Source: Neisseria bacilliformis (GTDB lineage: Bacteria > Pseudomonadota > Gammaproteobacteria > Burkholderiales > Neisseriaceae). Taken from it: DNA of 64,000 nt. Below are positions 3,339 to 64,000 of this stretch, piece by piece. Numbering within the stretch: position 1 is the stretch's first letter; every line of letters starts with the position of its first letter. A program made the position numbers and the translations under genes. The DNA is taken from contig NZ_CP059571.1 in assembly GCF_014055025.1 (NCBI RefSeq), positions 1,612,001 to 1,676,000 of the forward strand, given 5' to 3'. Below the pieces are notes generated by a model. It made no database searches. It worked only from the letters and a program-made list of their open reading frames with translations, and was not told where the DNA came from.

Positions 3339-4367
3339 TTATTTCACCGGCAGGCCGAAGTGCAGGCGGCAGATTTCGGTGGCGGTGCGGCCGCGCGGGG
3401 TGCGTTGCAGGAAGCCCTGCTGGATGAGGTAGGGTTCGATGACGTCTTCGATGGTGTCGGCACTCTCGCCGATGGCGGCGGCGATGTTGTCGAGGCCGAC
3501 GGGGCCGCCGCCGAATTTGTGCAGCACGGCTTCGAGGAATTTTCTGTCCATCATGTCCAGCCCGGCTTGGTCCACGTCGAGCAGGGTGAGCGCGGCGTCG
3601 GCGGTGTCGGCGGCGATGCGGCCGCTGCCTTTCACTTCGGCGTAGTCGCGCACGCGGCGCAGCAGGCGGTTGGCGATGCGCGGAGTGCCGCGGCTGCGGC
3701 GGGCGATTTCGAGCGCGCCTTCGGCGGCGAGGTCGAGCTGCAACAGGCCGGCGGAGCGGGATACGATGGTGGCGAGGTCGTCGTGGCCGTAAAACTCCAA
3801 GCGGGCGACGATGCCGAAGCGGTCGCGCAGGGGGTTGGTGAGCATGCCGGCGCGGGTGGTCGCGCCGACGAGGGTGAAGGGGGGCAGGTCGATTTTGACG
3901 GAGCGGGCGGCGGGGCCTTCGCCGATCATGATATCGAGCTGGTAGTCTTCGAGCGCGGGGTAGAGGATTTCTTCAACGACGGGGCTGAGGCGGTGGATTT
4001 CGTCGATAAACAAGACGTCGTGCGGTTCGAGGTTGGTAAGGAGGGCGGCCAAATCGCCCGCGCGTTCGAGTACGGGGCCGCTGGTTTGGCGCAGGTTGAC
4101 GCCCAACTCTTTGGCGATGATGTGCGCCAGCGTGGTTTTGCCCAGCCCGGGCGGGCCGAACAATAGGGTGTGGTCGAGGGCTTCGCCGCGTTTTTTGGCG
4201 GCGGCGATGAAGATGGCGAGCTGTTCTTTGGCTTTGTGCTGGCCGATGTAGTCGGCGAGGAATTTGGGGCGCAGGGCGCGTTCGAGCTGCTCTTCCTGCG
4301 AGGAGAGGGATTGGGCGGCGATGATGCGCTCGGGCGCGGCGGCGGTGAGCTGGTCGGTGTGGAGCAT
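3339..4367 (-). CDS. ruvB: Holliday junction branch-migration ATPase RuvB
   Basis: 342-residue AAA+ motor that drives RuvA-bound Holliday junctions during recombinational repair. Walker A GPPGLGKT at 71-78, Walker B DEIH at 122-125, sensor 1 GATTRAG at 168-174, and a C-terminal winged-helix ending [10 protein letters not shown]. The open frame extends seven codons further upstream, but the ATG at 4367 (MLHTDQL) gives the usual RuvB start. The TAA stop overlaps a reverse DUS copy at 3328-3339. No ruvA or ruvC nearby. A weak -10 (TATCAT on the minus strand near 4395) lies upstream. Confidence 0.96.
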
Positions 4368-4542
4368 GGCAATCGGGCGGGAAAACAAAGGGCGTATGAT
4401 AGCGGAACACGTCTGAGGCCGTCTGAAAAAATCACCCCGCCGCCGACACGGGGCGTAGCCGTGCTGCTATCATCCGCGTTCTTTCAGACGGCCTCCAAGA
4501 AAGGCAGGCCGTCGAACACACCAACCATCAAGAACAAACACC
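4368..4542. other. Divergent intergenic region with spaced DUS pair
   Basis: Separates ruvB (minus) from the DeoR-type gene (plus). Contains AGGCCGTCTGAA at 4416-4427 and the inverse at 4483-4494, 55 bases apart, so probably two uptake sites and not a compact terminator. Confidence 0.5.
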
Positions 4543-5313
4543 ATGACACACAAACTCCACCGACACGAAACCATCGTCCGACTGGTGCGCGAGCACGGCT
4601 TCATGCCCGTCGAAGGGCTGGCGCGCACGCTGGGCGTAACTGCGCAAACCGTGCGCCGCGACATCGGCGAGCTGTGCGAAACCGGCCTGCTGCGCCGCTA
4701 CCACGGCGGCGCAACCCCGGGCGAGGCCGCGCAAAACGACGCCTACCTGTTGCAGAAAAGCCGCCGCCAAAACGAAAAATCCCGCCTCGCCGCCCTGATT
4801 GCGGCGCAAATCCCCGACGGCGCAAGCCTGTTCGTCGGCATCGGCGCGACCATGGAGGCCGTGGCCGCCGCGCTGGCCGAAAGCCGCGCCAGCCTGCGCA
4901 TCATCACCAACAACATCCACGTTGCCGCGCTGGCCTCCGCCCGCAGCGACTACACCGTCATCATCACCTCCGGCGTGGTGCGCCCCGTGGACGGCGGCGT
5001 AACCGGCGTGGCCACCGTGGATTTCATCAACCAGTTCAAAGCCGACTACGCCGTACTCGGCGCGGCGGCGGTGGAAGACGACGGCTCGCTGCTCGATTAC
5101 GACTACAAGGAAGTCTGCGTGATGCAGGCGATGATGAACAACGCCCGCACCCGCTACCTCTCCATCGGCCACGCCGCCCCCGCCCGCACCGCGCTGGTGC
5201 GCATGGCCTCTGTTACCGAGTTCGACAGCGTCTTCGCCGACCGCCCCGTCGCCCCCTCCGTGGCCGAAAAACTCGCCGGCGCGGGCATCCCCTGCCATAT
5301 TGCCGAAGGGTAG
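4543..5313 (+). CDS. DeoR/GlpR-family transcriptional regulator
   Basis: 256-residue repressor. The N-terminal DeoR helix-turn-helix spans about residues 6-57 (GLARTLGVTAQTVRRDIGEL, then RRYHGGA), and the rest is a DeoR C-terminal sugar-phosphate sensor domain with GIGATMEAVA and ITNNIHVA. Family members bind phosphorylated sugars or glycerol-3-phosphate; no metabolic operon lies next to this gene, so the effector cannot be inferred. ATG at 4543 preceded by a weak purine stretch. Confidence 0.88.
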   Translation: MTHKLHRHETIVRLVREHGFMPVEGLARTLGVTAQTVRRDIGELCETGLLRRYHGGATPGEAAQNDAYLLQKSRRQNEKSRLAALIAAQIPDGASLFVGIGATMEAVAAALAESRASLRIITNNIHVAALASARSDYTVIITSGVVRPVDGGVTGVATVDFINQFKADYAVLGAAAVEDDGSLLDYDYKEVCVMQAMMNNARTRYLSIGHAAPARTALVRMASVTEFDSVFADRPVAPSVAEKLAGAGIPCHIAEG

Positions 5314-59285: not shown

Positions 59286-61837
59286 CGATACACCCGCAAA
59301 AATCAGAGAATCGGCCAATCTCGAACAAATCACCGTCAAAGGCAGCAGGCACGGCATCCGCGACAAAGCGGGCAAAGACCGCGTGTACGACAACGATATG
59401 TCCACGGTTTACTCGGGCAAGGAGGAAGTGGAACGCTTCAAAGGCGCAGCCCCCGCCGATATTTTCAAAGGCTTGGTCGGCGTGCAGAGCGGCGATGCGC
59501 GCAACAGCGGCGCATTAGATTCCAATATACGCGGCATTCAAGGGCAAGGCCGCGTGCCTGTTACCGTGGACGGCACCGAGCAGGCGATTACCGTCTGGCG
59601 CGGCTACAACGGCGCGAACAACCGCAACTACATCGATCCCATGCTCATCGGCGGCATGACCATCGAAAAAGGCCCCGCCCTCAGCCGCGACGTGGCCAAC
59701 TCGGTCGGCGGCGGCGTAGCCATTAAAACATTGGAAACCGACGATATTTTGCAGGAAGGCAAAGACTTCGGCATCGATGCCAAAGTGGAAGCCAGCACCA
59801 ACGCCGTGCGTCCGCGCTGGCCGTCAATGCAGCAGGGGATTAAGGTGCAAAATGATCCAAACTCAGGTAAAGAACTGGATTTCAACTATTTTGTCGATCC
59901 TGACTTGATGCGCCATGCAAAAAAAGGCGGGCGGTATGCACTTGGCAGAGACCAAGCGGCGAGAATTGCCCTAGCCAAACGCTGGGGCGATTTTGATTTG
60001 ATGGCCGCCTACGTCTGGCGGCACAAAGGCAACCACTATGCAGGCAGAAACGGCAGCAAATACTATCGGCAAGACCCCGCCTCCGCCGAAGAAGCCCATG
60101 CCTACACCCGCTACCTTGCCCATCTCTATTACCCCGGCGCGGAAGTGCCCAACACATCCAGCGACATGAAATCTCTGCTGCTCAAAGCCACATGGAAGCC
60201 CACCCCCTACCAGCGGCTGCAACTGGGCTGGCGCGACACCCGCGCCGAATACGGCGAAATCATGCCCTCCCGTTTGGGGGAAGGCAGATACAACCTGAAA
60301 AAATTTAAGGAAGAAGGCTATTTCAACAACGGCAGCCCTTACTCCCGTTTCCTGCAAAAATACGCCATCGGCACAGTCGCACAATGGCCGAGCAGCAGGG
60401 TGCACACCCAAGCCGCCAATCTCGACTACAAATGGAATCCGCCCACCCCCTATATCGACCTGCACGCCAACCTGTGGGCCACCCGCAACAACCTGCACAC
60501 CCACACCAGCGGCGGCCACCCGCGCGAGCCTTTCTATTTCTACCCCTCCACACCCGAAACCAAACCTTAGGAAAACGTTTTGCGCAACACCTCCCTCACC
60601 TATTCCGACGACAAACGCTGGGGCATCACCACCAGCAACAAATTCAAACTGAACGACAAACTCGATCTCACGCTGGCCGGCAGCTACCAGCGCGAAAGCC
60701 TCACCTCCAAAGACAACTGGTGGAACGACCCCTTGGAAAAAGCCAACCCTTCCATCTTTCGCACCCAAGCACGCGACGGCTGGCACAAACAATGGGACAC
60801 CTCCTTCCGCTTCGACTGGCGTCCTGCCGACTGGATCAGCATCAGCGCGGGCGCACGCAAAAACGGCTATGCCGCCTTCGACCGCAGACTGGCACGCGGG
60901 CGGGCGGCCAAAGACCGGTTTTACCGTGCCAAAGGAACAGAATACCGCTATGTCAACTGGAAAATGCCTGCTCCCGCCGATTTACAGCAGGCATACAACC
61001 GTTTCAAGACTGAAAACGAAGCCATCGATGCTGAAAAAGACACCGCCCTCGATCCGCTCTACCAATGGAAGGCCCGGGCAAAAACTGTTTGACATCAAAT
61101 GCGCCGGCAAAAGCGGCAGCGACCGCAGCGACTGCGAAGACGAAAAATACTTCTGGGACGAATACACCGAGCTGGAAAACAGATTCGGCGAACGCGAAGA
61201 AAAAATCAAAGAAACCTTCGAACCGCGCGAAGAAAAAATGTACAAAACCTACTACGGCTTTATCGACAACAACCCGACATACAGCGAATGGCGGCGCAAA
61301 GGCAAATTCGGCAATGGCGGCAGCTATTTTGAAGGCGAAATACAGGGCGGCGACCCCTCGGCATATCGCGGATACAGCTACCGCTGGGATGCCCGCAAAG
61401 ACGACAACAAATTCCACAAAGAAGACAGCCCGCTGGGCAACGGCATGCTGGCCGCCGAAAACGGCTACGATGTCAAAATGGGCGAACCGGGTACCCACGA
61501 CGCGCCGGAAGAGTTTCCCGAAGTCAAAAAAACCGGCGGTGTCAGCGGCTGGCAGCCCGTGCTGGCCGTAACCCTGCGCCCCACCGAAAACAGCCGCGTG
61601 TATGCCCGCTACACCCGCACCACCCGTTTCCCCAGCATCTTCGAATCCACCGTCGGCTTCTCCGGTTCCACCCCCACCTTCTACACCGTAAAACCCGAGC
61701 GCGGCACCAACATCGAATTCGGCTACACCTACGACCTTGCAGGCCGTCTGAAAGCCGAACACGCCGACGTGAAACTCGCCTACTACCGCAACACCATGAT
61801 GCCGCGCGCGAAAAATCCGTGCCTTACGTTGAGATAA
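59284..61837 (+). pseudogene. TonB-dependent receptor pseudogene
   Basis: The mature receptor starts at 59284 (DDTPAKIRESANLEQITVKG) without start codon or signal peptide; an in-frame TAG lies ten codons upstream. Plug domain is clear (NIRGIQGQGRVPVTVDGTEQ, GGGVAIKTLETDD), followed by barrel strands. Lesions: TAG at 60568-60570 inside the open frame, a one-base shift in the GCCCGGGC run near 61072-61077, and loss of the last barrel strands after YYRNT at about 61795. Resembles neisserial Tdf-type receptors for metals or haem, but the ligand is unknown. Not functional as it stands. Confidence 0.75.
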
Positions 61838-61956: not shown

Positions 61957-62026
61957 AAAAAGGGACGACATCGTCCCTTTTACTGTTAAACCCTGTTCAA
62001 ACCGGTATTAAAGCCGGTTTGAATGG
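61957..62026 (-). terminator. Two hairpins ending the right-edge gene unit
   Basis: TTCAAACCGG / CCGGTTTGAA (61998-62025) and AAAGGGACGA / TCGTCCCTTT (about 61958-61981), directly beyond the stop of the formyltransferase-like gene. Not DUS-based, unlike most terminators here. Confidence 0.65.
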
Positions 62027-62034
62027 GACGGTTT

Positions 62035-62619
62035 TCACGGTCGCCGTTCGCCCCCAAGCCGCTGCCGCGTGAATGCCGGTTCGAAGGTGGCCAGTGTTTC
62101 GTCCTGCGGCACGGCGGGGATGTCGGGGCGGGTCAGGTATTGGCCGAACAGGCGCAGCCCCATTGGGGCGAGTTCGCGCTGCCACAGGCTTTGTGCGGTA
62201 TCGGTGGCGCGGATGTGGCACCAGTCCTGCAGCAGGATGCCGCCGGTGTCGGCGCCGTCGTCCATGCGGTATAGGGTGCCGCCGGTAACGGGCTCGCGCA
62301 TATGGACAGCCCAGCGCACGGCGTCGCGGCCGCGATGGCGGGGCAGCAGCGAAGGATGGTAGCCGACGGCGCCGTAGCGCGCCTGATCGCGCAGGCTCTT
62401 CGGGATGAAGACGTGGGCGTGGGCGGCAAGGATGACGTCGCATTCGGGTAGGGCCGCGGGCAGCGCGGTTTGCGCCGGTACGCCGTGGGCGGCGGCTGCC
62501 TGAAACAGTCTGTCCGCGCTGTTCGGCGCGTAGACAGCGGTGACTTGATGGCCGTCGCGCAGGCATTGCTGCAAAAGCTCGGCGGCCAGCCATTTTTGGC
62601 CGATGATGGTTATCCTCAT
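62035..62619 (-). CDS. Formyltransferase-like protein with altered active site
   Basis: 194-residue protein with the Formyl_trans_N (GART/FMT) fold: MRITIIGQKWLAAELLQQCL, DVILAAHAHVFIPKS, YHPSLLPRHRGRDAVRWAV, and DDGADTGGILLQ with the conserved Asp. The catalytic Asn of the N-x-H-P-S-L-L-P motif is Gly (VGYHPSLLP), while His and Asp remain, so the chemistry may differ or the donor may not be formyl-folate. Much shorter than methionyl-tRNA formyltransferase: the C-terminal domain is absent. Starts within the stop codon of the upstream gene (ATGA overlap). Confidence 0.75.
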   Translation of the reverse strand: MRITIIGQKWLAAELLQQCLRDGHQVTAVYAPNSADRLFQAAAAHGVPAQTALPAALPECDVILAAHAHVFIPKSLRDQARYGAVGYHPSLLPRHRGRDAVRWAVHMREPVTGGTLYRMDDGADTGGILLQDWCHIRATDTAQSLWQRELAPMGLRLFGQYLTRPDIPAVPQDETLATFEPAFTRQRLGGERRP

Positions 62620-63743
62620 GCGTCCTCCCCCTCTCCCAGATAGCGGAAGCCCTGTACGGCGCGGAAGTGGCCGCCGTAGCCCACAGCGTTGCCGGTTTTC
62701 CCGCCGCTCGTGCGCTCCGCCGAGCGGCGTATGCTGGCGGCGGAGCGGGCTTTGTTGCCGCCGTATAAAACCGCCGATACCTGCGTCCACTTTTTGTCGC
62801 GGCGCAGAGCGTTGGCCAACGCCGGATGTGAAGTGTGGAACAGCGTGCGCATGGGCTTTCGGTAGCGGTTTTCGCCGCGCAGCCACATCTCGCAGCAGGC
62901 ATTGAGAAAGCGCATGCCTACGCCCGCGCCCTGCCACTCAGGCAGCACCACCAAACGGCACGCCCGCGCTTCGACCAAACCGGGGCGGGTACTGAACGCG
63001 ATATGCGCCACAGGCTGGCCGTTGACCAAACCCATGTAGTGGGTAGCGGCAATCATCGGCGGCAGTTTTAAATAATGATGCGGCTCAAACAGGCGCCAGT
63101 CGGCTTGTCGGCAAGGGTATATTTCCAGCTCGAGTTTTGGGCGTTGCCTGACCCACCCCCATTGGAATTGGCCGGTGTCGGTATCCAGCACCCAGTCGGG
63201 CTGCACCCAGTCCAAAATATCGTGGTGGCAGGACAGCAGTACTACCTGCCCCGTCGTACGGCGCCATGCTTTGGCAAACGCGCCCGCGCCGATTTGGGCG
63301 ATTTGGCGGTCGACCACCGAGCTGAACTCGTCCAATGCCGCAAAGGACGGTGCTTCGCACAGCAGTCGTGCCAGATTGGCGCGGAACTGCTCGCCGTTTG
63401 AGAGCACGGCGTACGGGCGCAGCCATGTCGGCACACTGCCCAAACCCACCGAAGCCAGCGCGGCGGTAATGTCGTTAAATGCGCCATCGGGTGCAATCGC
63501 ATCTACAATCGGCACATCCCGCGCCCATTTGGGCGCGTAGATGTGCCCCAGCTTTTTGCCGATGCTGGTTTTACCCGAGCCGGAAGAGCCGACCACCACG
63601 CCGATCTGCCACGGTTGCTCATCCAGCGGCAAATCCGCGCTTAGGTTAAAGTTTGCCCCGGTTTCCACATTAAACAGCGATTTCACAGCGGCGGCGCGGT
63701 AGCTGTCGAAATCCGAACAGCGATGGTTGATTTGGATTTTCAT
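62616..63743 (-). CDS. ABC-type ATPase fused to a GNAT acetyltransferase (COG2401-like)
   Basis: 375-residue fusion. Residues 1-215: ABC-type ATPase with Walker A GSSGSGKTSIGKK, signature-like SNGEQFRANLARLL, Walker B region FAALDEFSSVVD and H-loop SCHHDILDW; no membrane part. Residues 230-375: GNAT domain with RLVVLPEWQGAGVGMRFLN (the V..xWQGxGxG CoA-binding loop). This architecture occurs in phages and mobile elements with unknown substrate (family knowledge). ATG at 63743 overlaps the upstream ORF by four bases; its own stop overlaps the formyltransferase-like start. Confidence 0.8.
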   Translation of the reverse strand: MKIQINHRCSDFDSYRAAAVKSLFNVETGANFNLSADLPLDEQPWQIGVVVGSSGSGKTSIGKKLGHIYAPKWARDVPIVDAIAPDGAFNDITAALASVGLGSVPTWLRPYAVLSNGEQFRANLARLLCEAPSFAALDEFSSVVDRQIAQIGAGAFAKAWRRTTGQVVLLSCHHDILDWVQPDWVLDTDTGQFQWGWVRQRPKLELEIYPCRQADWRLFEPHHYLKLPPMIAATHYMGLVNGQPVAHIAFSTRPGLVEARACRLVVLPEWQGAGVGMRFLNACCEMWLRGENRYRKPMRTLFHTSHPALANALRRDKKWTQVSAVLYGGNKARSAASIRRSAERTSGGKTGNAVGYGGHFRAVQGFRYLGEGEDA

Positions 63744-63931
63744 ACGGTTACCACCTTTAATTTCAAACCTTGCGCTTTCAGCGCGGCGTACACCTGCTGC
63801 TGGTGCGGCTCGCTTTCGCACAGCACGACCACGCCGTACTGCTGTTTGTATTGGAAGCCGTTACGGCCGTAGTGTTTGGCCGCTTTTTGTTGCGGCGGCG
63901 GGTTTAGCGGGATGGCGTTGTTTTCGGGCAT
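63740..63931 (-). CDS. Small protein (63 aa) heading the ATPase-GNAT/formyltransferase unit
   Basis: Not recognised. Basic, glutamine-rich N-terminus (NPPPQQKAAKHYGRNGFQYK) then a compact beta-alpha-beta segment YGVVVLCESEPHQQQVYAAL. ATG at 63931 with AAAGGA upstream; however the same frame stays open to the window edge, so a longer gene truncated by the edge cannot be excluded. Overlaps the next gene by four bases. Confidence 0.6.
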   Translation of the reverse strand: MPENNAIPLNPPPQQKAAKHYGRNGFQYKQQYGVVVLCESEPHQQQVYAALKAQGLKLKVVTV

Positions 63932-64000
63932 CCGTTTTTTCCTTTCTGAGGATTCGGATGCTCGGCGGCATTCTGGGTTGTTAAAGAACTGAATCGGTTC
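63932..64000. other. Right edge of window
   Basis: 69 bases upstream of the small ORF; contains its AAAGGA ribosome-binding site on the minus strand. Two minus-strand frames remain open to the edge, so a further upstream gene may begin just outside. Confidence 0.4.

Follow-up and report, generated by a model that had tools for sequence, protein, structure and literature searches.

What does a compact minus-strand operon do at the right-hand end of a 64,000-nucleotide stretch of the Neisseria bacilliformis genome (contig NZ_CP059571.1, positions 1,612,001 to 1,676,000; hereafter the window), and in what element does it reside? The operon contains three intact open reading frames (ORFs) of 63, 375 and 194 amino acids (aa) between 62035 and 63931, encoding a small protein, a soluble ABC ATPase fused to a GNAT acyltransferase domain (ABC-GNAT) and a formyltransferase-like (FMT-like) protein. 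The first-pass annotation, made from the letters alone, had read it as an acyl or formyl modification module carried by a prophage or island and perhaps acting on DNA bases in the manner of phage Mom. We consider it likely that the unit is a phage DNA base modification operon standing in for mom in a Mu-like prophage. The core of this proposal, a prophage-borne, Com-led DNA base acylation module, is well supported by context, from which we infer DNA as the substrate, the acyl group and the benefit.

Both junctions within the unit, between the small ORF and ABC-GNAT and between ABC-GNAT and the FMT-like gene, are ATGA overlaps, as first described, the ATG of ABC-GNAT lying within the ATGA shared with the stop of the small ORF. 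The unit had been described as open to the window edge, and extension of the sequence past 64000 revealed a fourth gene that continues to 64086, shares 28 bases with the start of the small ORF and heads the operon, giving a minus-strand transcription order of Com, small ORF, ABC-GNAT and FMT-like. The product of this gene was recognized as a Com homolog both by the Pfam family Zn_ribbon_Com (29.9 bits, above the curated cut-off of 22.9) and by the PHROG families 'gpCom control of modification' (E 1.2e-7) and 'translational regulator' (E 5.1e-10). In phage Mu, Com activates translation of mom (PMC6483171; papers are cited here from excerpts). Com-like tblastn matches at E up to 1 were obtained in 36 records, 12 of which were inspected for the next gene; for Mu, PAN70 and Smp131 the match listing already displayed the modification gene. 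Mom or a DNA methyltransferase was the next gene in 10 of the 12: Mom in Mu, PAN70 and JD024, a D12-type N6-adenine methyltransferase in B3, SuMu and Mcat1, and an N6/N4 DNA methylase in Chuche, PhAER-5, ST2-1pr and Smp131. In these 10 loci Com is therefore tied to DNA base modification.

Past the window lie genes for tail-fibre assembly, tail fibre, baseplate, tape-measure and sheath proteins and, further on, for a MuA-like transposase (E 3.1e-119) and a MuB-like DNA transposition protein (E 6e-63, both in PHROGs), with repressor, terminase and portal genes in the same element. The operon forms the end of this Mu-like prophage of about 37 kb, which is inserted in a TonB-receptor gene. The receptor reading frame stops at about 61797, its C-terminal part restarts 37.0 kb to the right, and CAACACCAT is present at both sides of the prophage. 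Given the resumed frame and the repeat, the edge that the first-pass annotation had placed in the receptor gene is the real prophage end; the arrangement would fit prophage ends of the form TG...CA with a 6-base target duplication. The flanks had been named as a place where a larger small-molecule biosynthetic operon might come to light, and this candidate was ruled out by the phage tail, transposition and head genes found there. The receptor gene is also broken upstream of the prophage edge, and its decay therefore does not stem from the insertion alone.

The assignment of the 375-aa protein as a soluble ABC ATPase fused to an acetyltransferase domain was borne out by Pfam matches to ABC_tran (28.4 bits, cut-off 25) and Acetyltransf_1 (20.8 bits, cut-off 20.7), by phrog_11143 (E 5.5e-158) and by an AlphaFold2 model with a mean predicted local distance difference test score (pLDDT) of 89.2. 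Walker A, the signature, Walker B with its Glu, the H-loop and the GNAT Q-x-x-G-x-G motif are invariant in 107 of 107 aligned sequences. This set holds near-full-length matches, thinned for similarity, together with five divergent loci taken by match range, and excludes the split loci L159-L163 and L166. In the excluded loci (Moraxella and several Bacteroidota) ABC and GNAT lie in separate ORFs, either split genes or frameshifts, as is the case in at least six loci. A natural fusion of the small ORF or the FMT-like protein with ABC-GNAT was rejected, neither domain being found inside ABC ORFs, the longer of which look like upstream frame extensions.

Relatives of ABC-GNAT were found in 63 phage records, and are encoded in 578 of the 600 pattern matches listed from IMG/VR and in 224 of the 594 listed from GTDB genomes. 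By record titles they come from Pseudomonadota, Bacteroidota, Bacillota, Actinomycetota and other phyla, and many of the records are metagenome-assembled genomes. Altogether 171 loci were gathered, 168 with an ABC-GNAT ORF, the window's own locus being counted twice (L001, L003). The full three-gene order is kept in the Mu-like Pseudomonas phage Komp_PAO1_1 and in the Mu-like Porphyromonas phage009a, where it stands at the end of the record. In Gordonia phage AnClar, ABC-GNAT and the FMT-like gene adjoin the terminase gene and the partner domain resides in a ParB-type gene two genes upstream. Opposite-strand ORFs adjoin ABC-GNAT in two Nonomuraea loci (L164, L168) and read like an ASCH-type domain, which would make them possible readers of modified bases. 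The public label 'iron siderophore transporter' on the ABC part at L187:2962-3639 looks wrong.

The small ORF matches phrog_28816 (E 8.5e-20), and its domain is found on the same strand, anywhere in the locus, in 161 of the 168 ABC-GNAT loci. Among 48 partners longer than 150 aa the domain is C-terminal (no more than 3 residues from the end) in 47. Seven long partners were scanned for ParB_N: three score above the curated cut-off, two below it, and two have no match. In more distant phages, ParB_N upstream of ABC-GNAT scores above the cut-off in Javan141 and EastWest and below it in Jace and LE3, and the family scan gave none in pT24; one long partner matches the N-terminal part of a PADLOC type II methyltransferase model (E 3.2e-29). 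In other phages, then, the domain sits at the end of longer proteins, often of ParB type, and the small ORF resembles the C-terminal domain of such a partner that has become separate. The ParB link that the first-pass annotation expected is present in relatives. In the Dpd DNA-modification system one component, DpdB, is a ParB-like ATPase (PMC12839542). The public label 'acr candidate' on the small ORF at L008:32672-32800 looks wrong.

The form of this partner goes with the presence of Com. In a set of 152 loci with an ABC-GNAT ORF of more than 300 aa and at least 400 bases upstream (L001 dropped, L003 kept), loci with Com comprised 60 with a short small ORF, 1 with a partner of at least 100 aa and 1 with none detected; the corresponding numbers for loci lacking Com were 32, 48 and 10. 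Com thus appears where the small-ORF domain stands alone, and the combination of Com with a short ORF and the long partner form are near-exclusive. In one Neisseriaceae locus a gene (L101:8942-9850, plus strand) lies between Com and the small ORF; by a sequence motif it reads like a C5 cytosine methyltransferase gene.

The third protein matches Formyl_trans_N (72.3 bits, cut-off 26.1) and phrog_9240 (E 9e-58), and its AlphaFold2 model has a mean pLDDT of 95.9. Its closest solved structure is the hydrolase domain of 10-formyltetrahydrofolate (10-formyl-THF) dehydrogenase (FDH; E 2.5e-43), compared with 3.8e-30 for the best methionyl-tRNA formyltransferase; ArnA and PurN scored lower in a companion search. 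His88 and Asp124 are conserved in 80 of 80 FMT-like proteins. Two positions ahead of the His, where Asn would be expected, the window's protein has Gly86; none of 120 FMT-like proteins has Asn there, the residue being Gly, Ala, Ile, Val or Ser (the 120 being those of 122 FMT matches in which the His motif was found, possibly with the window's own locus twice). The typical amino-formyltransferases (Fmt, PurN, ArnA) were therefore rejected as a model, the Asn of their Asn-x-His...Asp triad being the missing residue; of the earlier label "formyltransferase-like" the fold stands, and the function implied by it gives way to a resemblance to the FDH hydrolase domain. In that domain Ile104 takes the place of the Asn that is crucial in Fmt, ArnA and GART (PMC4388273). 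The domain passes the formyl group to a phosphopantetheine thiol, and the authors of the HypX study propose formyl transfer to coenzyme A (CoA) for a related domain, noting that direct proof is lacking (PMC6802093). The public label 'tRNA-methyltransferase' on the FMT-like gene at L007:2312-2962 looks wrong.

Several measures link the FMT-like gene to ABC-GNAT. The two adjoin, as called by domain positions, in 108 of 137 loci with room downstream (L001 and ABC ORFs of 300 aa or less again dropped). Starting from the FMT side, 79 of 80 loci (best 80 of 356) have ABC-GNAT directly upstream, and the miss has only 120 bp of upstream sequence. The families thus occur together widely, the opposite of the purely local association that the first-pass annotation had named as speaking against it. 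All-against-all clustering of 1,759 neighbouring ORFs (at least 80 aa, within 7 kb) ranked the FMT-like family first among neighbours (90 loci), followed by the ParB-type partner (60 loci). Pairwise distances of ABC-GNAT and FMT-like proteins correlate (r 0.614 over 102 loci), none of 999 permutations reaching this value. In phage Jace (L189:4065-5176) a ParB-type gene and ABC-GNAT are followed by genes for an aspartate decarboxylase (PF02261, E 2e-33) and a class III CoA-transferase (PF02515, E 2.2e-8), which would fit alternative acyl-supply genes in this one case.

These results suggest a mechanism for the proposed base modification operon. Com would switch on translation of the operon as it does for mom, as its homology and the gene overlap suggest; the small protein may join or guide the complex; and the ABC ATPase, probably an ATP-driven dimer, would load on or open the DNA. 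The GNAT domain, judging from its invariant motifs, would acylate an exocyclic amino group of a base with acyl-CoA as the donor, the FMT-like protein would supply or alter the acyl group, and the modified DNA would resist host restriction. The reaction most likely for the FMT-like protein would be transfer of formyl from 10-formyl-THF to the CoA thiol, yielding formyl-CoA for the GNAT domain; it is favoured because the protein resembles the FDH hydrolase domain and its GNAT partner would use an acyl-CoA, and we advance this route tentatively. A more detailed version, which we hold to be rather unlikely as a whole, places a formyl or formyl-derived group on an exocyclic amine of phage DNA, the FDH-like enzyme making formyl-CoA and the ATP-driven ABC-GNAT placing the group, with phages exchanging both the acyl-supply genes (FMT-like, or the Jace pair) and the control part (Com or a ParB fusion).

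A number of observations weigh against this account. When the GNAT domain was compared by profile with one Mom sequence, that of Mu, no similarity emerged (probability 0.1), and no match to Mom (PF25680) was found in any of the three proteins in Pfam; direct Mom homology was rejected on the former result. The analogy with Mom, a guess from domains at first pass, nonetheless gains independent support from context, namely from the Com homolog at the head of the operon and from the Mom and DNA methyltransferase genes headed by Com-like genes elsewhere. Two of the 12 inspected Com-like matches, in Slash and MaeS, are followed by no recognisable modification gene, and several of the 12 are weak, with E up to 0.9. 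ParB_N is above cut-off in only three of the seven long partners, and most FMT-like members have Gly at the position of the Ile of FDH, whose domain alone is able to hydrolyse 10-formyl-THF. In 29 of 137 loci no FMT-like gene adjoins by the window used, one of them having it 628 bp away, and some loci seem to end at ABC-GNAT, so formyl supply cannot be essential in all. In several Com loci that lack the FMT-like gene (L105, L118, L126, L147), what follows ABC-GNAT resembles host genes on reading, and ABC-GNAT there seems to be the last phage gene. Sampling introduces bias as well. Only the 80 best loci each were kept from the IMG/VR and GTDB scans. The Com model speaks for the account in giving 66 matches in 21,863 ORFs of the collected loci, 64 of them within the 618 ORFs just upstream of ABC-GNAT; both it and the small-ORF model were trained on those same upstream ORFs, so that their counts are not independent tests, as the Pfam and PHROG matches are. 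The FMT-side query was built from proteins adjoining ABC-GNAT, and some of its loci came from contigs already seen; the 79 of 80 therefore holds for close relatives, and distant FMT-like genes elsewhere would be missed.

The alternative that survives best keeps DNA as the substrate and changes the order of steps: the GNAT domain would use acetyl-CoA or another host acyl-CoA, and the FMT-like protein would act afterwards, formylating or deformylating the base adduct. The minority of loci in which the third gene does not adjoin ABC-GNAT, and from which it follows that the GNAT step can run without it, speaks for this variant; the Asn required by amino-formyltransferases (PMC4388273), absent throughout the 120 proteins, argues against direct formylation of an amine, and we regard the variant as possible, short of an even chance. 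A different target altogether, a protein, tRNA or small molecule acylated late in infection to block host defence or favour packaging, draws on the many substrates that GNAT enzymes use, on the one Gordonia annotation that names the third gene a tRNA-methyltransferase and on the proximity of the unit to terminase genes in some phages. It must be set against the base modification enzymes that Com heads in 10 of 12 inspected loci, the ParB-type partner and the DNA methyltransferase genes near the unit in some loci, and we judge it improbable. Passive cargo or a decaying island without present function is highly improbable: among 100 related genomes only three clear ABC-GNAT matches besides the window's own were found, two of them broken (a tally of 25 includes weak matches to other ABC proteins), yet the three ORFs are intact and ATGA-coupled, their active-site motifs are invariant, the family is spread across many phages, and rough ratios of non-synonymous to synonymous substitution (dN/dS, with dS about 1 or more) against the Eikenella copy are 0.13 for ABC-GNAT, 0.34 for FMT-like and 0.40 for the small ORF. 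The broken remnants lie in relatives G046 (L179) and G008 (L180), and an intact copy of 76% in G057 (L178).

The features of the locus are collected in Table 1. The hairpins noticed at first pass do end the operon and, as described, do not contain the DNA uptake sequence (DUS). The 10-base DUS core occurs 134 times in the window, the last at 61743, and is absent from 62035-63931, again as first reported; this is a weak sign, because the whole prophage is DUS-poor (28 cores in 37.0 kb vs 31 in 20.0 kb of flank), the density between 61798 and 98792 of the extended sequence being about half that of the flanks. A search of L003:1780-4600 gave no sigma-70-type promoter before Com. GATC-based control, as in Mu, was considered and set aside: a single GATC lies between the tail-fibre assembly gene and Com. 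An unassigned minus-strand ORF of about 100 aa (L003, about 4260-4562), followed by a strong hairpin, lies in the same interval. PADLOC defence models returned no match for the small ORF, the FMT-like protein or Com, and a sole match for ABC-GNAT (mad3, 39 residues, E 1.8e-6). A known anti-phage defence system was set aside, the unit's own proteins giving weak PADLOC matches at most.

Table 1. Features of the operon and its surroundings, in window coordinates unless marked as extended.
Feature	Position	Strand	Basis or remark
Com homolog, 60 aa	63904-64086 extended (L003:3904-4086); 63904..64000 is the 3' part in the window	-	Cys4 zinc finger; Pfam and PHROG
Small ORF, 63 aa	63740..63931	-	phrog_28816; resembles a ~45-aa domain occurring on its own
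Soluble ABC ATPase fused to GNAT acyltransferase domain, 375 aa	62616..63743	-	Pfam, PHROG, motifs, model
Formyltransferase-fold protein, 194 aa, 10-formyl-THF-dehydrogenase-hydrolase type	62035..62619	-	Pfam, profile match, residues, model
Two non-DUS hairpins 3' of the operon, T's after the second	61958..62023	-	Sequence and folding
CAACACCAT	61789..61797; copy at extended 98793 (genome 1710793)		Prophage edge inside receptor gene
Disrupted TonB-dependent receptor gene	59383..61797	+	Named by reading the sequence, no family search

How does this operon compare with systems already described? According to a jumbo-phage paper (PMC7824862), an earlier prediction has a GNAT coupled with an ABC ATPase carrying out an uncharacterised acylation of a DNA base; the example given is phage pT24. 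The pT24 protein is homologous to the window's ABC-GNAT (tblastn E 3e-36, 37.1% over 59% of the query), which shares with that predicted family intact nucleotide-binding motifs and the GNAT CoA motif. We take the earlier prediction to be that of Iyer et al. 2013, from the same group, and it may already mention ParB or formyltransferase partners. The excerpted account in PMC7824862 does not have Com control, a small-ORF/ParB partner or an FDH-type third protein among the features it describes. Among the matches listed in the open-access literature, at the level of titles and the start of abstracts, nothing linked Com or an FDH-type protein to ABC-GNAT, a result that makes no claim of absence from print. 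Current phage records label these genes siderophore transporter, acr candidate, tRNA-methyltransferase or hypothetical protein, and the present reading proposes a specific acyl donor and points to isolated phages in which the prediction could be tested directly.

The FMT-like protein shares with FDH the H-x-SLLP sequence, the catalytic Asp, the lack of the Asn and a C-terminal Q..E..AT.E; unlike FDH and HypX, it is a stand-alone protein of 194 aa without a carrier-protein, dehydrogenase or enoyl-CoA-hydratase-like domain, the alignment being to FDH. Like com-mom of Mu, the window's operon lies at the end of a transposable prophage with MuA and MuB and has a Com zinc-finger gene overlapping the next gene; unlike com-mom, it contains three other genes instead of Mom (PF25680), and its GNAT domain is not detectably related to Mom. 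The same overlap or close precedence of Com relative to a DNA base-modification gene is seen in the Com-methyltransferase cassettes of B3, Chuche, SuMu and Smp131, where a methyltransferase stands in the position taken here by ABC-GNAT and the FMT-like protein. If the proposed function is correct, the operon would be a second way of acylating DNA, one that does not depend on Mom and answers to the same type of Com switch.

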